DNA from: an uncultured Bacteroidales bacterium
Lineage (GTDB): Bacteria; Bacteroidota; Bacteroidia; Bacteroidales; Paludibacteraceae
Direction: 5' to 3'
Length of the DNA stretch: 64,000 nt
Assembly (NCBI GenBank): GCA_902769535.1
Contig: CACXPH010000004.1
Coordinates: forward strand, 61,011-125,010
Below the pieces are notes generated by a model that worked only from the letters and a program-made list of their open reading frames with translations, did no database searches and was not told the origin of the DNA. Positions 45,473 to 53,023 of the stretch are shown one piece after another (position 1 is the stretch's first letter; the number at the start of each line of letters is the position of its first letter). Position numbers and translations under genes: made by a program.

Positions 45473-45705
45473 TTTATTTGCAAAAAAATGCCACACGCCG
45501 CATGGGCTACACTCGCATTGAACACCTCGCGGGCGGGGCGGCATCTTTCGCGGCCTTATGCAATATGACGCCAATATGCCGGACGCGAGGGGGCGAACAA
45601 ACGGCGCGGGGAAAGATAATTGCGGAGGTAGGCGCCAGCGAAGACCTAAACCGCCTATGGTCGAGCCAACAAGAAGTAAAGGAAAATAACAAAAATGCAA
45701 ATATT
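45473..45705. other. GC-rich non-coding stretch between two divergent promoters
   Basis: It is flanked by AT-rich promoters but is markedly GC-rich. Several frames are open on both strands, yet the frames run into the promoters and give no recognisable product. I see no gene here. A structured RNA or a remnant is possible. Confidence 0.5.
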
Positions 45706-45737
45706 CTTGCATATGTCATTTTTTTGTTGTAATTTTG
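45706..45737 (+). promoter_or_regulatory. Promoter of the GH3-HAD-PlsC-EamA operon
   Basis: -33 CTTG (45706-45709) and -7 TAATTTTG (45730-45737) have a 20-bp spacer. The element is identical over its whole length to the thrS promoter. Confidence 0.8.
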
Positions 45738-45760
45738 CACGCAAAATTGTGGTCTTAAGT

Positions 45761-47626
45761 ATGGCAAAAAAGATAAAACCCTATTTGGATCAGGAAGGAC
45801 GAGCATTGCCGTATCCGTGGTTGATCAATCTTATGTTGATGTTGGTGGGAGGGTCTCAGACGTTACGTCTTCGATTCTGGAGTCGCAAACCGCGGCACAT
45901 CGCAGAGAAGACGCTGCGTGATATACTGACTATTTCGCGGGATACAGTTTATGGTAAGGAACATCATTTCGACCGAATACTGTCTGCTACGACGGCGGAG
46001 GACTTGTTTCGTTTGTATCGCCTCTATGTGCCGGTGAACAACTCGTTTGAGACGCTGCGTCCGTACGTAGAGCGGCATAAGAACGGCGAGGAAGACGTGC
46101 TGTTTCCGGGCAAACCGGATATGTACGCGACGACTTCGGGTACGACGAGCGAACCGAAATGGATTCCGATGACACATAAGTACCTGAAGGACGTCTACGG
46201 CAAGATGAGTCATATATGGACCTGGAACTTCGTCAAGCACCGTAGTCGTATTTTCGGCGGACATATTTTTACAACCGTCGGCAAGGAATGCGAAGGCTAT
46301 GCGCCGGACGGTACACTGTTCGGAGCGGTGAGCGGTGTGTTGGTGCGTGACATCCCGCAGATCATCAAGAAGCACTACACGGGACCTGCAGCTGTGATGT
46401 CTATTCCTGAATATGGCACGCGTAACTATGTGCTGATGCGTCTGGCGCTGCAGCACCGCGACGTAACTTTATGGGCGACAGCGAACCCTTCGACGATATT
46501 GGAGTTGATGCGTGCGCTCAATGAGAATACGGAGGAGATGATTAACGATATTGAGAAGGGTACTATCTGCGAAGATTTCGAGATTCCGTACGAGATCCGT
46601 TCGGAACTGGACGCGTATATATCACCTAAGCCTGAACGTGCCGCAGAGCTGCGTAAGATTCTTGCGGAGAAGGGACATCTGTACCCGAAAGATTTCTGGC
46701 CGTGGTTGCAATATCTGAGCACGTGGAAATGCGGTAACACGAAGATCTACATGGACAAGTATATGGATCAGTTCGACTGGAACAAGACCTATTACCAGGA
46801 GTTAGGTTATATCGCGACGGAGTGCCGTTTCGGATTCTCGCTGGACGAGACAAACGAGAGTGTGCTGTTCCCGCAGTTCCACTATTACGAGTTTGTGGAA
46901 GAGAGCGAGTTGGACAGTCCGCACAAGCACTTCAAGCAGATCGACGAGTTGGAACTCGGCAAGCGTTACTGCGCGTACGTGACGACCTATTCGGGCTTGT
47001 TCAGATATAACATGAATGACCTCGTGGAGGTGGGTGGCAAGTACAAAGAGACGCCGACCGTGCATATGGTGAGCAAGGTCAACGGTATTGTATCCATGAC
47101 CGGTGAGAAGTTGTACGAACCGCAGTTCATGGACGCAGTCCATCAAGCGGAGGACGCGACGGGCATCAAGACTAAGTTCTTCGTGGGCTTTGCGGATGTC
47201 GAGGAGAGTAAGTACCATTTCTACTACGAGTTTGCGGACGAGAAGATCAAGCAGGAGCAGGCGGAGGCGTTCACGAAAGTGGTGGACGAGAAACTGCAGC
47301 ATATTAACCTCGAGTACGAGAGCAAACGGCAGTCCTTCCGTCTGCATGAACCGGAGACGCATATACTCCTTTCTAATGCGTACGCGCGTTTCAAGGCCGC
47401 GTGTCTGAAGGATGGATTTAGAGACGGACAGTTTAAGTTCAATCTGCTCATGCAGGATGAGAAACGCCGCACGAAATTCAACATGCTGCAACGCTGGGAA
47501 AGCCGCTTCGACCAGTTGAGCGAGAATATTATCAACAGAGCCAATAAGATAGATGAGCGACAAAAAGAACGTGCTAAACGGCGTACAGACCGTCGTGCTC
47601 GATCTGGACGGAACACTGTACGATAA
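45761..47626 (+). CDS. GH3-superfamily acyl-adenylating protein
   Basis: This 621-residue protein belongs to the GH3 family (auxin-responsive promoter family), ATP-dependent enzymes that in plants couple carboxylic acids such as indole-acetate or jasmonate to amino acids. The adenylation P-loop TSGTTSEPKWIP (125-136) is clear, then YTGPAAVMSIPEYGTRNY, and FRYNMNDLVEVGG as the second AMP-binding segment. The bacterial substrate is unknown. I start at ATG 45761; the in-frame ATG at 45695 lies upstream of the promoter. Downstream HAD, acyltransferase and exporter genes suggest it activates a lipid or another hydrophobic acid. Confidence 0.88.
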   Translation: MAKKIKPYLDQEGRALPYPWLINLMLMLVGGSQTLRLRFWSRKPRHIAEKTLRDILTISRDTVYGKEHHFDRILSATTAEDLFRLYRLYVPVNNSFETLRPYVERHKNGEEDVLFPGKPDMYATTSGTTSEPKWIPMTHKYLKDVYGKMSHIWTWNFVKHRSRIFGGHIFTTVGKECEGYAPDGTLFGAVSGVLVRDIPQIIKKHYTGPAAVMSIPEYGTRNYVLMRLALQHRDVTLWATANPSTILELMRALNENTEEMINDIEKGTICEDFEIPYEIRSELDAYISPKPERAAELRKILAEKGHLYPKDFWPWLQYLSTWKCGNTKIYMDKYMDQFDWNKTYYQELGYIATECRFGFSLDETNESVLFPQFHYYEFVEESELDSPHKHFKQIDELELGKRYCAYVTTYSGLFRYNMNDLVEVGGKYKETPTVHMVSKVNGIVSMTGEKLYEPQFMDAVHQAEDATGIKTKFFVGFADVEESKYHFYYEFADEKIKQEQAEAFTKVVDEKLQHINLEYESKRQSFRLHEPETHILLSNAYARFKAACLKDGFRDGQFKFNLLMQDEKRRTKFNMLQRWESRFDQLSENIINRANKIDERQKERAKRRTDRRARSGRNTVR

Positions 47627-48167
47627 GACCGGTCTGGCAGTGAGGATGGTGCGCCGCCTGTGGTGGTGTCTGCCTATGCTGGCTGCTGAGCGACTGGCGC
47701 GGCGCAACATGCACTACGTGCAGTATGCCTCCGAAGAGGAGTTCTTCGAGGCGTTCTTCGCCTATATGTCGCGTGGTCATTGGTGGGGTGTGAACACCGC
47801 TGCCGCCTGGTATCACACGGTGTATATGCCGGCCATGATCCGACTGATACACAAGTACCATAAACCGCGTCCGGAGACGATGGCGCTGATAGAAGAGGCG
47901 AAGGCGAAAGGTCTGCAATTGGCGATCTACTCGGACTATGGATGTGTGGTCGAGAAATTAGAAGCATTAGGCATTGATCCGAAGCCGTTTGACTTGCTGA
48001 TAGCTGCGCCGCAGTTAGGTGCGTTGAAACCGTCGGAACCCTGCGCCAGAAGAGTGCTTGAACTGTTAGACGCTAAACCCAAGACGACCCTTTTCGTGGG
48101 TGATCGCGACGAGAAAGACGGCGAGAGTGCAAGGGCTGTTGGCGCGAAGTTTTATTTAATTTCGTAA
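47553..48167 (+). CDS. HAD-superfamily hydrolase
   Basis: The 204-residue phosphatase-like protein has motif I VVLDLDGTLYD (D17, D19), motif II IYSDYG, the lysine of LGALKPSEP and motif III FVGDRDEKDGESA. An alpha-helical cap lies between. The substrate is not predictable. The ATG start gives a 74-base overlap with the GH3 gene; a GTG at 47571 would shorten this and place motif I nearer the N-terminus as usual. Tight coupling to GH3 suggests a shared pathway. Confidence 0.85.
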   Translation: MSDKKNVLNGVQTVVLDLDGTLYDKTGLAVRMVRRLWWCLPMLAAERLARRNMHYVQYASEEEFFEAFFAYMSRGHWWGVNTAAAWYHTVYMPAMIRLIHKYHKPRPETMALIEEAKAKGLQLAIYSDYGCVVEKLEALGIDPKPFDLLIAAPQLGALKPSEPCARRVLELLDAKPKTTLFVGDRDEKDGESARAVGAKFYLIS

Positions 48168-48188
48168 TAACGTAATTACGTAATGACG
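48161..48188. repeat. Octamer array (TACGTAAT-like), 3.5 copies, HAD/acyltransferase junction
   Basis: The units TTCGTAAT, AACGTAAT, TACGTAAT and GACG span the HAD stop and the next start. They are close to the 19210-19241 array. Confidence 0.85.
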
Positions 48189-49067
48189 AACAAGAGATAT
48201 ATTGATTTGAAAGTGACGCCCGGTACATATGTACCGCCGGTAGTGATGGACTATCCGGAAGATGATCCGTATGTGGGGTTGTACAAACCGATCTATGACC
48301 GGCCTTATCCGGAGGTCGATGCGAACTATCCGTACGTGGATGATAGTTTCAAGAACCGTTTGCGTATATGGTTCGGCTATAACGTCGTGCTGCGCATTTT
48401 AGGTGCGATACTACGTATTAAATATGGTTTGCGCTGGAAGATGGAAGGTGATAAGCGCTGGTCGCGTTGCTCGTGGACGCTGCGTAAACGCCTGCGTCAG
48501 TATGACTTGAGTAACGGTGCTATTACTGTTGCTAACCACTGTTACCGGCACGACTGCGCATCGGTGTTGACGTCTATCCACGGTTCGCATCGGATGCGTA
48601 TTCCGATGTTCGCGCCGAACTTCCGAACGAAGGATCAGTTCTATCTCTGCGTGATCGGCGGTATTCCTATTCCGGCGCCGGAAGCAGGTATGAGTGCGAT
48701 GAAGGCGTTCAACGCGGCTTTCGATGAGTTCAACCGTCGGAAATATTGGTTTCACATCTTCCCGGAGGCTAAACGCTGGGACTGGTACAAGCCGCTGAGA
48801 CCTTTTCAGAAGGGCGCTTTCACGATGGCGTATAAGTACAACAAACCGATTATTCCGTTTGCAGTCAGTTACCGTGAACGAACGGGTATCTGGCGACTCT
48901 TCGGACCGAAAGACGAACCTTGTACGCAAGTCATCATGGGTGCACCGATCTTCCCGGATACCACGAAACCTCGTGCGGTGGAGACCGAACGATTGTTAAA
49001 CGAAACACATCAAGCCATATGTCGCTTAGCGGGAATAGAACACAATACGTGGCCGTCGCAGCTCTGA
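48183..49067 (+). CDS. PlsC-type acyltransferase
   Basis: The 294-residue protein has the lysophospholipid acyltransferase motifs: NHCYRHD (H119-x4-D124) and FPEAKRW (a variant of FPEG). A hydrophobic segment precedes the catalytic motif. The N-terminal 60 residues are Pro/Tyr-rich and not part of the common fold. It transfers an acyl chain to a hydroxyl acceptor, classically lysophosphatidate. Another acyltransferase lies at 55119, so this one may serve a special acceptor linked to GH3. Confidence 0.82.
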   Translation: MTNKRYIDLKVTPGTYVPPVVMDYPEDDPYVGLYKPIYDRPYPEVDANYPYVDDSFKNRLRIWFGYNVVLRILGAILRIKYGLRWKMEGDKRWSRCSWTLRKRLRQYDLSNGAITVANHCYRHDCASVLTSIHGSHRMRIPMFAPNFRTKDQFYLCVIGGIPIPAPEAGMSAMKAFNAAFDEFNRRKYWFHIFPEAKRWDWYKPLRPFQKGAFTMAYKYNKPIIPFAVSYRERTGIWRLFGPKDEPCTQVIMGAPIFPDTTKPRAVETERLLNETHQAICRLAGIEHNTWPSQL

Positions 49068-49960
49068 TCGTTTCAATGATCATCTGGTCTGTCAGCGGCA
49101 TCGCTATCAAGCACGCCTTGGCCGTTCTACCGCCATTCACGATGATTGTTTTGCGATTTGTACCTTCGGTATTGATCATGCTGGCCATCGGTCTTATCTG
49201 GCGAAAGAGTCCGCTTTTCGGTTTGCAACGCCTGGAACTCAAAGACCTGCCGCTTTTCCTAATTGCGGGTTTCTGCCAGCCCTTCCTATATTACCTGCTC
49301 GAGACCTACGCCTACGATGCCCTCAATAGTCCGACTATCGCAGAGACTTTGCTCTCCACCTCGCCGCTCCTCAGTCCGATCTTTGCCGCCGTGCTCCTTC
49401 GTGAGCGGGTGACGAAATACAATATTATCGGAATTATCGTCTCGACCTTAGGCGTTTTTGCACTAACCTTGGTGGGTAGTACCGATTATTCGATTGGTAA
49501 TTACTGGGGTATACTCTTGGCTTTTGCTGCGGTGTCTGCCGCTGTAGTGGATAGCATCATGATGCGCAAAGTGCCGGCTAAGTACAGTTCGCTCAGTTTT
49601 ATTTTCTATGCCCAACTGATCAGTCTGCTTTTCTTCCTGCCTATCTGGGCATGGCGCGAAGGTTTCGGTGCGTTGACGTCCATCGACTGGTCGGCCACGG
49701 ATGCGCAGGTAGCACTTGGTTGCGTAGCGTATCTAACGGTCTTCGCCAGTGTGATAGCGTTTATCCTGTTCTGTTTTGCGCTGCGCAAAGTGGGAGTGAC
49801 GCAAGCGAATGCGTTTAATAACATCCGTCCTGCATTTACGGCTTTGTGGATGTTTCTGTTCTTCGGTGAGCATCTACCGCTCGCTAAATGGGTTGGTATA
49901 CTTTTAATCATTTTCGGATTATTTGTATGCCAAAAACAAGAAAAAGTTTCCGATTGTTAA
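49019..49960 (+). CDS. EamA/DMT-family transporter
   Basis: The 313-residue membrane protein has ten predicted helices in two EamA repeats (WSVSGIAIKHALAVLPPFTMIVLRF in the first, VTQANAFNNIRPAFTALWMFLFFGE in the second). Family members export small metabolites. I start at ATG 49019, which overlaps the acyltransferase by 49 bases; the earlier ATG at 48920 would add 33 residues lacking transporter character. It ends the GH3 operon and may export its product. Confidence 0.87.
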   Translation: MSLSGNRTQYVAVAALIVSMIIWSVSGIAIKHALAVLPPFTMIVLRFVPSVLIMLAIGLIWRKSPLFGLQRLELKDLPLFLIAGFCQPFLYYLLETYAYDALNSPTIAETLLSTSPLLSPIFAAVLLRERVTKYNIIGIIVSTLGVFALTLVGSTDYSIGNYWGILLAFAAVSAAVVDSIMMRKVPAKYSSLSFIFYAQLISLLFFLPIWAWREGFGALTSIDWSATDAQVALGCVAYLTVFASVIAFILFCFALRKVGVTQANAFNNIRPAFTALWMFLFFGEHLPLAKWVGILLIIFGLFVCQKQEKVSDC

Positions 49961-49966
49961 GATTTA

Positions 49967-49998
49967 TTTGCCTATACGAAATATATTTCGTAAATTTG
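49967..49998 (+). promoter_or_regulatory. Promoter of the steroid-reductase-like operon, with palindromic operator in the spacer
   Basis: -33 TTTG (49967-49970) and -7 TAAATTTG (49991-49998) have a 20-bp spacer. TACGAAATATATTTCGTA (49975-49992) is a perfect 18-bp palindrome that fills the spacer, a classic place for a repressor site. No regulator gene is adjacent. Confidence 0.75.
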
Positions 49999-50031: not shown

Positions 50032-50841
50032 ATGCCGATAGAAAACATTTACTCTATTGATTTCTTTTACGATCTGCTCTACATCATGTTTTTGGTGGGC
50101 TTAGTCGTATTCGTATCTTTGTATTTTGTGGACGCAGGTTACGGAAAAATGCGTTCGGAAAAATGGGGACCGGCCATTAATAACAAAGTAGGCTGGCTGC
50201 TGATGGAGTGCCCGGTGTTCTTCGTAATGCTGTACCTCTATTTCAAGTCCTTCCCGCTGTATGGCGGAGTGACGATGAAGGCGCCGTACTGGTTGTTCTT
50301 CCTCATTTTTGAGTTCCATTATTTCCAGCGCTCGTTCGTTTTCCCGTTCTTGCTGAAGGGAAAGAGCAAGATGCCGGTGGTGATCATGATGCTCTCTGTC
50401 ATCTGGAACCTTATCAACGGTTATATCCAGGGTTACTGGCTCTTCCATTTGGCTCCGCAGTACTATCCGGAACTCTACACCTCGGCTTGGGTGACAAGTC
50501 CGCAATTCATCATCGGTACGATTATTTTCTTCACCGGATGGATCATCAACATGCATTCTGATCATGTGATCCGCCATTTGCGTCAACCGGGTGACACGAA
50601 TCACTACTTGCCGAAGAAAGGAATGTACAAGTACGTGACGAGTGCCAATTACTTGGGTGAGATCACTGAGTGGCTCGGCTTTGCTATCCTCACGTGGTCG
50701 CTTGCAGGCTTGCTGTTCTTCTGGTTCAGTTGCTGCAACCTCGTGCCGCGCAGCAACGCGATCTACAAGAAGTACGAAGAGGAGTTCCCCGATGAGTTCG
50801 ATCGTAAGAAACTGAAACGTATTATTCCCTTTATTTACTAA
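50032..50841 (+). CDS. 3-oxo-5-alpha-steroid 4-dehydrogenase family (steroid 5-alpha-reductase)
   Basis: This 269-residue membrane enzyme has seven predicted helices and resembles vertebrate SRD5A1/2 along its whole length. Residues known to matter in human SRD5A2 have counterparts: E59 in LLMECP (human E57), Y97 in FHYFQR (Y91), N173 and D177 in NMHSD, N206 and E210 in ANYLGEITEW (E197). The C-terminus ends KRIIPFIY as in the family. The known reaction is NADPH-dependent saturation of the delta-4 bond of 3-ketosteroids to the 5-alpha form. It is first in an operon, 3 bases before the ene-reductase. Other acceptors, such as 2-enoyl lipids, cannot be excluded. Confidence 0.88.
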   Translation: MPIENIYSIDFFYDLLYIMFLVGLVVFVSLYFVDAGYGKMRSEKWGPAINNKVGWLLMECPVFFVMLYLYFKSFPLYGGVTMKAPYWLFFLIFEFHYFQRSFVFPFLLKGKSKMPVVIMMLSVIWNLINGYIQGYWLFHLAPQYYPELYTSAWVTSPQFIIGTIIFFTGWIINMHSDHVIRHLRQPGDTNHYLPKKGMYKYVTSANYLGEITEWLGFAILTWSLAGLLFFWFSCCNLVPRSNAIYKKYEEEFPDEFDRKKLKRIIPFIY

Positions 50842-50844
50842 ATA

Positions 50845-52158
50845 ATGGCAACAAAAAAGAAGCAAGAGCAGGCTGCAGAGTCGAAGCTCTTTACTCCCTA
50901 TCAATTGGGACCTATCACGCTGCGTAACCGCATTATCCGTAGTGCAGCGTTTGAGAATATGGCGCGTGCGAATGCACCGACGCAGGAATTGCAGGACTAC
51001 CACGTGTCTGTGGCACGCGGTGGAGTAGGTATGACGACCGTCGCTTACTGCGCGGTAGATCTGAGTGGCGTCTCTTTTGACGGTCAACTCTACGTGCGTC
51101 CGGAGATCATCCCGGATATGAAGAAGATGACGGATGCTATTCATGCCGAAGGAGCGAAAGCCTCCATCCAGTTAGGTCACTGCGGAAACATGACGCATTT
51201 CTACACCTGTCATTGTATGCCGGTCAGTGCCGACACATGGTTCAACCTCTATAGCCCGACGATCCACCGTCGCCTCAAGGTGGCGGAGATCAAGAATCTC
51301 GTTAAGAAATTCGGTGAGGCGGTGGACTGGGCACGTGAGTGCGGTTTTGACTGCGTGGAGATCCATGCCGGTCACGCGTACCTCATCTCGCAGTTTATCA
51401 GTCCGCGTACCAACCACCGTCATGATGAGTACGGCGGCAGTTTTGAGAACCGCGTTCGCTTCATGAACGAGATCCTCGACGAGGTGATGGCGCATGCAGG
51501 CAACGACATGGCAGTAGTCGTTAAGACCAATATGTGGGATGACTGCTGGCACGGTGTGACCATCGAAGAGGGTATTAAGGTCGCTAAAGAGATCGAGAAG
51601 CATAAGGTGCACGGCATCATCCTCTCCGGAGGAACCGTAAGCCGTTCGCCGATGACCATCCTTAGCGGTGCGATGCCGTATAAGACGCTCGCGCACTACA
51701 TGCCGATGAAGTCCTTCTGGTGGCTCAAAGCGGCGTTAAATATACCGGGCGTACATCAGATCATGCTGCCTACTTCGCCGTTCAAGGAACTCTATTTCAT
51801 GGACAAGGCGAAGATCTTCCAGAAAGAGATCACAAATACACCGCTGATCTATGTAGGCGGTGTGCAGAGCGGTGATAACTGCCAGCAGATCATGGACGAA
51901 GGCTTTGAGCTCTTCCAAATAGCGCACGTGCTCATCAAGGATCCGGAGTTCGTACACCATGTTCAGGAGAACCCGCATTACCATGCAGGCTGTGGTCGTT
52001 CGAACTACTGCGTAGGCCGTATGTACACGCTCAACATGAAGTGCCACGAGTGCGTAGAACGCGACGGAGAGGTCATCGCACCGCGTATTAAGAAAGAGAT
52101 TGCACAACTCGAGGCGAACGCCAAAGAGTCTGTTAAACAGCAAAAAGCCGGTAAATAA
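50845..52158 (+). CDS. NADH:flavin oxidoreductase, old yellow enzyme family (possible 5-beta-reductase type)
   Basis: The 437-residue FMN TIM-barrel protein has TPYQLGPITLRNRIIRSA, IQLGHCGN, EIHAGHAYLISQFISP with the substrate-binding His pair, and DEYGGSFENRVRF. It stops after the barrel plus a cysteine-rich tail (C-x5-C-x10-C-x2-C, about residues 386-406) and lacks the FAD/NAD domain of BaiCD and 2,4-dienoyl-CoA reductase. Family members reduce activated C=C bonds, including delta-4-3-keto bile acids. Gene neighbours on both sides, 3 and 0 bases away, suggest the 5-beta counterpart of the 5-alpha-reductase. Substrate is inferred. Confidence 0.85.
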   Translation: MATKKKQEQAAESKLFTPYQLGPITLRNRIIRSAAFENMARANAPTQELQDYHVSVARGGVGMTTVAYCAVDLSGVSFDGQLYVRPEIIPDMKKMTDAIHAEGAKASIQLGHCGNMTHFYTCHCMPVSADTWFNLYSPTIHRRLKVAEIKNLVKKFGEAVDWARECGFDCVEIHAGHAYLISQFISPRTNHRHDEYGGSFENRVRFMNEILDEVMAHAGNDMAVVVKTNMWDDCWHGVTIEEGIKVAKEIEKHKVHGIILSGGTVSRSPMTILSGAMPYKTLAHYMPMKSFWWLKAALNIPGVHQIMLPTSPFKELYFMDKAKIFQKEITNTPLIYVGGVQSGDNCQQIMDEGFELFQIAHVLIKDPEFVHHVQENPHYHAGCGRSNYCVGRMYTLNMKCHECVERDGEVIAPRIKKEIAQLEANAKESVKQQKAGK

Positions 52159-52986
52159 ATGTTAGCTCTTGTAACAGGCGCTTCGTCAGGTATCGGCTTG
52201 CAGTACGCCACGGCTCTTGCGCGTGATTATCATTGTGATCTGCTGCTCGTCAGCAATCAGGAGAAAGAACTCGACGAGGTAGCCAAAGACCTCGCTCAGA
52301 AATACAACGTCAAGACCGTGGCGCATTATGCGGACCTCAGTCTAAGTGACGCGGCGGAGAACCTACACGACTGGTGTGTCAAAGAAGGGTTTGTCATCGA
52401 CATACTCATCAATAACGCCGGTGTATTCTTTTTCAATCCTTACTGCGAGACCTCGATGAAGCGTATCGAGTTGATGCTACAATTGCATGTGATGACGGTG
52501 GCTAAGCTCACGCGGCTCTTTGCGGCCGACATGTGCCAACGTCAACTGACGGAAGAGGAGGCTCGTTCACGCATCTGCGGGCATAAGCGTATGCGCGGGT
52601 ATATATTAAATATGAGTAGTATGTCGGCTTGGATGGCGATGCCGGGTATTCAGACCTACAATGCCACGAAATCCTTCATCTATAATTTCTCGAAGTCTAT
52701 CTGGTACGAACTCAAGCCGCAGAACGTCGGAATTACGGTCATGGCACCAGGTGCAGTGGACACAGGTCTGTTCGGTCTGGCGCCGAACCTCCGTAAACTG
52801 GCAGTGGCGCTGACGGTTTCCATTCCGCCGGAGAAACTGGTTAAACGTGCGCTCAAGAAAATGTTCCGCAATAAGAAAGCGGACACGCCGGGATTCATCA
52901 ACTGGTTGAGCACACCGCTGCTCAAGCACACACCGGACTGGATGTTGTTTCTTGCGCAGAAAAAACTGAAGCAGTTCATGCATTAA
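52159..52986 (+). CDS. Short-chain dehydrogenase/reductase, possible hydroxysteroid dehydrogenase
   Basis: The 275-residue classical SDR has the cofactor loop TGASSGIG (6-13), NNAG (85-88), catalytic Ser in NMSSMS (about 153-154) and Y167-x3-K171 (YNATK). Its ATG follows the ene-reductase stop directly. SDRs interconvert hydroxyl and keto groups with NAD(P). In context it would oxidise or reduce the 3-position of a steroid. A C-terminal extension of about 40 residues carries basic and hydrophobic segments and may touch the membrane. The substrate is not shown by sequence. Confidence 0.87.
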   Translation: MLALVTGASSGIGLQYATALARDYHCDLLLVSNQEKELDEVAKDLAQKYNVKTVAHYADLSLSDAAENLHDWCVKEGFVIDILINNAGVFFFNPYCETSMKRIELMLQLHVMTVAKLTRLFAADMCQRQLTEEEARSRICGHKRMRGYILNMSSMSAWMAMPGIQTYNATKSFIYNFSKSIWYELKPQNVGITVMAPGAVDTGLFGLAPNLRKLAVALTVSIPPEKLVKRALKKMFRNKKADTPGFINWLSTPLLKHTPDWMLFLAQKKLKQFMH

Positions 52987-52989
52987 ATA

Positions 52990-53023
52990 AAAAAAATAGA
53001 GCCTTGCGGGGCTCTATTTTTTT
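52990..53023. terminator. Bidirectional terminator between the SDR gene and ctpA
   Basis: AAATAGAGCC (52994-53003) pairs with GGCTCTATTT (53010-53019), with A-rich and T-rich flanks on both sides. It ends both convergent transcripts and includes the ctpA stop codon. Confidence 0.9.

Follow-up and report, generated by a model that had tools for sequence, protein, structure and literature searches.

Does an uncultured member of the Paludibacteraceae carry the same steroid-reducing gene cluster that has been tied, in other Bacteroidota, to isoallo-bile acids, or a variant of it with another output? The question is raised by three closely packed genes in a 64,000-nucleotide stretch, here called the window, of contig CACXPH010000004.1 from an uncultured Bacteroidales bacterium. 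Judged by homology and gene order, they form a real, conserved operon predicted to act on the steroid A ring, and it is likely that they make up one transcription unit for A-ring redox chemistry on a substrate of the Δ4-3-ketosteroid type. The third gene differs from its counterpart in the Parabacteroides cluster, and the operon's end product may therefore differ as well. The three genes are:

50032..50841, + strand: 5AR, SRD5A-type steroid 5-alpha-reductase homologue, 269 amino acids (aa), with M58-E59-Y97 replacing Q-E-Y
50845..52158, + strand: OYE (old-yellow-enzyme type), flavin mononucleotide (FMN) ene-reductase, candidate 5-beta-reductase/dehydrogenase partner, 437 aa, with an H174/H177 pair and conserved Y179
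52159..52986, + strand: SDRw, classical short-chain dehydrogenase/reductase (SDR), candidate hydroxysteroid dehydrogenase (HSDH), 275 aa, non-orthologous to the Parabacteroides cluster SDR

Gene organization

An earlier reading made from the sequence only had described a three-gene operon running in one direction with intergenic gaps of 3 and 0 bases, and the plus-strand open reading frames (ORFs) bear this out. All three products lie above the curated Pfam cut-offs (Steroid_dh, 2e-40; Oxidored_FMN, 2.4e-58; adh_short, 6.4e-32). Across the loci compared, the median gap is 19.5 nt between 5AR and OYE (n = 106) and -4 nt between OYE and SDR (n = 85). Chance adjacency of 5AR and OYE was rejected, an OYE homologue lying less than 600 bases from 5AR in all 30 of the best loci (window included) and, on a wider count, within 1.6 kb in 106 of 137.

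Two lineages of short-chain dehydrogenase

According to the sequence-only reading, the operon has the same composition as published clusters of 5-alpha-reductase, 5-beta-reductase (5BR) and 3-beta-HSDH (3β-HSDH). The kinship and order of 5AR and OYE uphold this; the SDR as the same third component does not. The SDR found behind OYE in Parabacteroides massiliensis (283 aa), Parabacteroides sp. PH5-46 and Bacteroides bouchesdurhonensis, which we call SDRp, shares 22% identity with SDRw over 210 aligned columns (P. massiliensis protein). In a tree of 71 SDR rows, labelled beforehand by BLAST, with no outside SDRs and with part of the SDRw set left out, the two sets part at a 100/100 branch. SDRw as an orthologue of the Parabacteroides cluster SDR was rejected on these two grounds and on the genome search given below. 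The phylogenetic check suggested earlier sets the SDR apart from Parabacteroides SDRp, the comparison being with kin and not with named characterised proteins. The window's own genome, 85% complete, contains no close SDRp match, the best being 27% identical at 2.8e-11. Literature searches, at the level of titles and passages, found no paper title on the SDRw/SDRp split.

Distribution across the Bacteroidales

Of 393 Bacteroidales genomes sampled, our own among them, 47 have gut-type 5AR, 55 have cluster-type OYE, 30 have SDRp and 43 have SDRw. The cut-offs behind these numbers were set by eye (E ≤ 1e-74 for 5AR; ≤ 1e-105, plus one split match, for OYE; ≤ 1e-80 for SDRp; for SDRw ≤ 1e-82 order-wide and ≤ 1e-100 in Parabacteroides), and the genome sets and coordinates for the co-occurrence counts were compiled by hand. 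5AR and OYE are a widespread Bacteroidales module: OYE is present in 46 of the 47 5AR genomes (Fisher 1e-49; this and the following Fisher p-values ignore kinship among genomes) and lies within 1.5 kb of 5AR in 39 of the 47. Where OYE is 5AR-adjacent (39 genomes), SDRp is found no more than 2 kb from OYE in 22, and where it is not (16 genomes) in none (p = 4.5e-5); for SDRw the figures are 26 of 39 and 8 of 16 (p = 0.36). Both SDRs are that close in 14 of the 39. By mere presence, SDRp is found in 27 of the 46 genomes with 5AR and OYE and in 0 of the 9 with OYE and no 5AR (p = 0.0018), and SDRw in 35 of 46 and 5 of 9, respectively (p = 0.24). SDRw would thus be a partner that is also found with OYE where 5AR is missing, and SDRp one that mostly goes with 5AR. 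By position, SDRw is near OYE (≤ 2 kb) in 34 of its 43 genomes and SDRp in 22 of 30; because of the cut-offs chosen, the SDRw set holds copies that lie away from OYE.

The same picture can be drawn locus by locus (G and L numbers are our handles for genomes and loci). The count covers 137 of 140 5AR loci, the distant L145, L149 and L150 falling below the score filter; the window is excluded, and duplicates are included (L104 = L155, plus species present in two collections). The arrangement is 5AR-OYE-SDRw in 53, 5AR-OYE-SDRp in 17, 5AR-OYE-SDRw-SDRp in 12 and 5AR-OYE-SDRw-SDRw in 3, with 5AR-OYE only in 15; a further 6 end within 1.8 kb past OYE and 2 end after 5AR. The remaining 29 have no OYE within 1.6 kb, 16 of them being distant 5ARs and one (L061) a known miss that has OYE. 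The coexistence of SDRw and SDRp in 12 tandem loci argues for different jobs.

In L063, L074 and L095, where two SDRw copies stand in a row behind OYE, the second copy is about 51-52% identical to the window SDR. Two genomes of family f2 (G001, G120) have two gut-type 5AR genes each, and the five f2-family loci fetched (L181-L184, L187) have no OYE beside 5AR; OYE lies elsewhere in G120, and none was found in G001 at E ≤ 1e-60. In B. bouchesdurhonensis an ORF of 331 aa on the opposite strand (L101:6992-7987) is interposed between 5AR and OYE.

A natural swap in Parabacteroides

Among 38 Parabacteroides species genomes, several of them only 75-90% complete, 5AR occurs in 20 and SDRp in 20, with 19 shared. 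Strong SDRw occurs in 14; none of these has 5AR or SDRp, and SDRw adjoins OYE in all 14 (L201, L215-L227). Within the stretches fetched, rplY/pth lie behind 13 of these OYE-SDRw loci and an RND pump gene stands in front of 9. In G404 (whose locus is identical to L104 of P. massiliensis), G105, G405 and G402, it is 5AR-OYE-SDRp that lies between the same RND gene and rplY/pth, while in G422 the RND gene is in front of the 5AR locus and the contig then ends. These shared flanks, compared for the 10 of 20 Parabacteroides 5AR loci that were fetched with flanks, indicate that one locus holds either 5AR-OYE-SDRp or OYE-SDRw, depending on the species. The more divergent G417, G398, G406 and G427 have 5AR-OYE-SDRp in other surroundings, and G412 has OYE-SDRp-rplY-pth with no 5AR match. 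Six 5AR genomes of the genus show SDRw-like matches that are weaker (1e-92 to 1e-68) and in four cases roughly good enough for the order-wide cut-off; the five of these loci that were fetched (L228-L231, L234) have no OYE nearby. With 5AR, OYE and SDRp in some species and OYE and SDRw in others, the roles of both SDRs are directly testable in a cultured genus.

The large genome G399 (L173, L233) has a split locus, with RND-regulator-5AR on one contig and OYE-SDRp-rplY-pth on another. At L215 (G394:C1:376593-387354) the alignment of the RND pump gene covers just residues 1-609 of 1035, and OYE is truncated, aligning from residue 188 on, beside an intact-looking SDRw; OYE is nearly full length in the other 13 OYE-SDRw loci. 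G394, which has SDRw and neither 5AR nor SDRp, we take to be the type strain of P. distasonis, ATCC 8503.

It is unlikely that the window simply holds the known isoallo-bile-acid operon, with a 3β-HSDH as its SDR and an iso/allo bile acid as its product. The gene order 5AR-OYE-SDR is that of Parabacteroides, and passages of PMC10382948 and of another review tie the Bacteroidota 5BR, 5AR and 3β-HSDH to isoallolithocholic acid (isoalloLCA). SDRw could, moreover, be a 3β-HSDH itself: P. distasonis is listed with 3α- and 3β-HSDH activity (passages of PMC12692668 and PMC13008668) and P. merdae with 3β-HSDH activity (PMC12692668), although these passages do not tie the activities to genes. The P. 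distasonis listing, taken with the presence of SDRw and absence of 5AR in G394, fits SDRw as a 3-HSDH, its stereochemistry not being fixed thereby. Against the isoallo operon stand the low identity and separate clade of SDRw, the tandem loci in which both SDR types coexist, and the absence of a bile salt hydrolase (BSH) family match in the genome. Since SDRw is not an orthologue of SDRp, a 3β-HSDH or isoallo role is unproven for it and an iso/allo output not established.

The 5-alpha-reductase homologue

The 5AR belongs to PF02544 by a wide margin (138.7 bits against a cut-off of 22.6) and aligns to structure 7c83 over 10-268. Its best relatives of solved structure are PbSRD5A (2.9e-55) and human SRD5A2 (5.5e-39), the enoyl-CoA reductase art-1 reaching only 4.5e-9. 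In alignments to 7c83 and 7bw1, E59, Y97, N206 and E210 match E57, Y91, N193 and E197 of SRD5A2, as had been proposed; they are conserved in 140, 140, 136 and 140 of 140 relatives, respectively. Besides the catalytic E59 and Y97, the protein keeps all but one of the eight NADPH residues that PMC7815742 lists.

The ene-reductase

The absence of an FAD/NAD domain from OYE, noted from the sequence only, was confirmed: the protein has 437 aa and its main NCBIfam matches stop by residue 277. Its family members have 400-440 aa, lack the FAD/NAD domain of the BaiCD type and keep H174, H177 and Y179. The earlier suggestion of a distinct subtype holds relative to BaiCD, whose model NF041087 gives 182.7 bits against an equivalog cut-off of 825 and stops at residue 266; otherwise this is the normal OYE subtype of the cluster family. 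Much the same applies to its unusual four-cysteine tail, which is real and is family-wide, not peculiar to this protein:

51991..52053, + strand: OYE Cys tail, C383-x5-C389-x10-C400-x2-C/H403, metal or Fe-S ligand candidate

C383 and C389 are present in 106 of 106 homologues and C400 in 105, and the fourth position is Cys in 72 and His in 23 of the 106. Enzymes of the FadH/BaiCD type carry a C-x2-C-x3-C-x11-C pattern, from which the spacing here, C-x5-C-x10-C-x2-[C/H], differs. An Fe-S motif by homology was rejected, as a profile of the OYE tail gave no convincing solved relative across the Cys region (best matches HisF, 0.00076, and histamine dehydrogenase, 0.32). A profile search with OYE found nothing at 1e-50 and known OYE-family enzymes at 1e-25. 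Structural matches of the AlphaFold2 model, whose mean pLDDT is 81.1 (under 50 for residues 1-14 and 265-275), include thermophilic-like OYEs, 2,4-dienoyl-CoA reductase (1ps9) and 2-naphthoyl-CoA reductase, and the best 50 rows listed in the fold search contain generic OYE neighbours.

Enoyl-CoA and polyprenal reductases are also members of the SRD5A superfamily, and one may ask whether the operon reduces a non-steroid lipid, such as an acyl-CoA or a polyprenal. The presence of 1ps9 and 2-naphthoyl-CoA reductase among the best OYE fold matches, with the resemblance to 2,4-dienoyl-CoA reductase, would agree with this, as would the GH3-like, HAD and PlsC-like (acyltransferase) genes kept upstream in the nearest relatives and an SDR fold that gives no specificity. 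We nevertheless consider it very improbable: the 5AR is far closer to the SRD5A1/2 type than to art-1, a promoter-like element stands between the operon and its upstream neighbours, the HAD and PlsC-like genes among these were seen in the nearest loci only (GH3 in L055, L058, L060 and L075 too), and, according to a passage of the review PMC10382948, a knockout connects the P. merdae homologue with bile acids.

Promoter region and surroundings

The operon is bracketed by the following elements:

49968..49998, + strand: promoter-like element, TTG, 20-base spacer and TAAATTTG, ending 33 bases before the 5AR start codon
49975..49992, strand-neutral: perfect 18-bp palindrome TACGAAATATATTTCGTA, operator-like, within the promoter-like element, 9/9 pairs
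52990..53023, + strand: terminator-like hairpin and T run at the end of the transcription unit, consensus match, 15 pairs

The TTG/TAAATTTG pattern follows the promoter consensus of the Bacteroidetes type, which the sigma-70 scan of the region does not cover. Of the 21 nearest loci, 18 have it ahead of 5AR. Among the 21 loci with a 5AR of 78% identity or more, the window counted, 14 keep at least 7 of the 9 palindrome pairs, with compensatory changes from G-C to T-A and A-T at pair 4 and from A-T to T-A at pair 7; four of the others show the promoter pattern but no palindrome (2-4 pairs), and three lack the pattern. This pairing was reached in 0 of 5000 column shuffles, which ignore the kinship of these related sequences, and no more distant locus rises above 6/9 pairs. 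A protein that binds the palindrome probably controls transcription. The sole exact site of TACGAAWWWWWWTTCGTA in the genome is the window palindrome itself, and an operator shared with a regulator gene was rejected. The best second site (2 mismatches, G000:C12:35484-35501) is placed as a promoter would be, ahead of a small ORF with no obvious connection; of the other five near-sites, one was inspected and lies inside an ORF. When up to 3 mismatches are allowed, 7 sites are found on each strand and 2 with a reversed-pattern control, so that this result is weak. In the Parabacteroides loci L104 (5190-6008) and L102 (5324-6016), a gene that by eye is response-regulator-like overlaps the start of 5AR, which suggests a control different from that of the window palindrome. 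The closing hairpin has the most pairs of the 7 terminator-like sites in the region, where 5.6 are expected.

Upstream, at 45695-49960 of the window, lies a block of GH3-like, HAD, PlsC-like acyltransferase and EamA transporter genes, the last of which ends at 49960, before the promoter-like element. The block recurs in the same order in L031-L043, L045, L046 and L074, and EamA alone precedes 5AR in further Paludibacteraceae or Bacteroidales loci. The source assembly is a metagenome-assembled genome (MAG) of 1.89 Mb in 39 contigs, 85% complete. The closest named relatives, L031-L036 (5AR 92-95% identical), are titled Paludibacteraceae or Bacteroidales bacterium; one comes from a water-buffalo omasum and one from a sheep, and the rest are RUG, RUI and UBA bins, RUG presumably standing for 'rumen uncultured genome'. 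Going by these titles, the host probably lives in the ruminant gut.

Proposed function

In the proposed scheme, 5AR, a putative membrane enzyme, would use NADPH to reduce the double bond between C4 and C5, giving the 5-alpha form, and OYE would reduce or form the same bond in the 5-beta series. Run backwards, OYE could convert 5-beta steroids to the Δ4 intermediate, and SDRw would catalyse hydroxyl-keto interconversion, C3 being the most likely position. The trio could thereby move steroids from the 5-beta to the 5-alpha series and back (A/B cis and trans). The operon would be a variant of the Bacteroidales 5AR–5BR–HSDH cluster with SDRw, and not SDRp, in the HSDH place. The simplest model has an OYE core with interchangeable partners, 5AR and SDRp for the 5-alpha side and SDRw for the OYE side. 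It is plausible, and we suggest it tentatively, that A-ring metabolism is modular in this sense (OYE with 5AR/SDRp or with SDRw), that SDRw is an HSDH lineage serving the OYE (5-beta) side, and that the window unites 5AR with SDRw under a dedicated palindromic operator, its product (for example allo and not isoallo) and its inducer being unlike those of the centenarian-type isoallo cluster.

A number of observations weigh against such a function. Two concern 5AR and go beyond the residue list of the earlier reading: Gln56 of the QEY triad is replaced by Met (M58), and the NADPH-binding H231 by Ile (I244). In human SRD5A2, Q56A/L abolished activity, according to a passage of PMC7815742. Met stands here in 140 of 140 Bacteroidales rows, Parabacteroides included, and I, L or V takes the H231 position in 120 of 120 gut-clade rows, with His in 16 of the 20 more distant ones. 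Because of the uniform Met, we file the 5AR in a Bacteroidales branch and not as an SRD5A1/2 orthologue; Met as a gut-specific trait was rejected, the more distant Bacteroidales 5ARs having it as well (20 of 20). Met is probably compatible with activity in this branch, since the Parabacteroides rows have it (the P. merdae sequence not being identified by name among them) and disruption of the P. merdae 5AR stops formation of allo-LCA derivatives, the enzyme being linked to 3-oxo-Δ4-LCA reduction (passages of PMC10382948). For SDRw, 203 NCBIfam models matched, of which the best 25 all score far short of their cut-offs and include no model named for an HSDH; the first solved HSDH in the fold search with SDRw ranks 20th, and the best 50 rows listed hold generic SDR neighbours, a fold that gives no specificity. 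The window departs from the pairing of 5AR with SDRp, as do the 53 other 5AR-OYE-SDRw loci and the 3 tandem-SDRw loci, and G412 and G399 have OYE-SDRp without 5AR beside it. As the window lineage combines 5AR with SDRw, the pairing is therefore a tendency and not a rule.

Two further points concern the substrate. The 85%-complete genome has no match to PF02275, the BSH family. The foregut lies upstream of bile entry, and among the 80 named relatives 27 have titles that give a ruminant gut compartment, foregut in 14 and hindgut in 13 (by eye). Both points, together with the preference of PbSRD5A for progesterone (a passage of PMC7815742), would suit plant-derived or other non-bile steroids, such as phytosterol products and plant or host hormones. 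This variant of our explanation, with the same chemistry, is possible, if somewhat doubtful: bile acids were measured in all four yak stomach chambers (passage of PMC11509861), and the cluster also occurs in MAGs from the hindgut as well as in cultured Parabacteroides and Bacteroides. Other genes with a bile-acid metabolism annotation are present in rumen MAGs (passage of PMC11193847). Bile acids, phytosterol products and hormones are all candidate substrates of the proposed A-ring operon.

The identity of the third gene matters in that a gene setting the 3-alpha or the 3-beta form decides between allo- and isoallo-bile acid output of a gut bacterium, and reviews, passages of PMC10382948 among them, link isoalloLCA with regulatory T cells and with the inhibition of Gram-positive pathogens. 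Not every SDR beside a 5AR should be annotated as a 3β-HSDH. The system is also extended here to MAGs from the ruminant foregut.

Comparison with known systems

Work of 2021 by Sato and by Li reportedly described the Bacteroidota 5AR–5BR–3β-HSDH cluster, in P. merdae, Odoribacter and Bacteroides dorei. In P. merdae, the 5AR gene has as cluster neighbours a predicted 3β-HSDH and an NADH:flavin oxidoreductase for which the role of 5β-reductase is hypothesised (passage of PMC10382948). The window shares with the fetched Parabacteroides and Bacteroides loci the adjacency and order of 5AR and OYE, at identities of 51-59% and 51-53%, respectively. It differs in its third gene, SDRw and not SDRp, and from L102 and L104 in having its own promoter-like element with a palindrome and no regulator-like gene overlapping 5AR.

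With human SRD5A2 and PbSRD5A, the window 5AR has in common the Pfam family Steroid_dh, a near full-length alignment, the catalytic Glu and Tyr and most of the NADPH residues; Met for Gln in the QEY triad and Ile for His231 set it apart. OYE resembles BaiCD and the 5β-reductases of the Clostridium innocuum ci2350 type in its OYE barrel with a His pair and, presumably, in the bond on which it acts (ci2350 being likened by its description in a passage of PMC12238238, not by sequence), and differs from BaiCD in lacking the C-terminal FAD/NAD domain. Finally, the OYE-SDRw locus of Parabacteroides has, like the window, an SDRw homologue (37-44% identity) directly behind OYE; in contrast to the window it has no 5AR, and it is flanked by rplY/pth and the RND gene.

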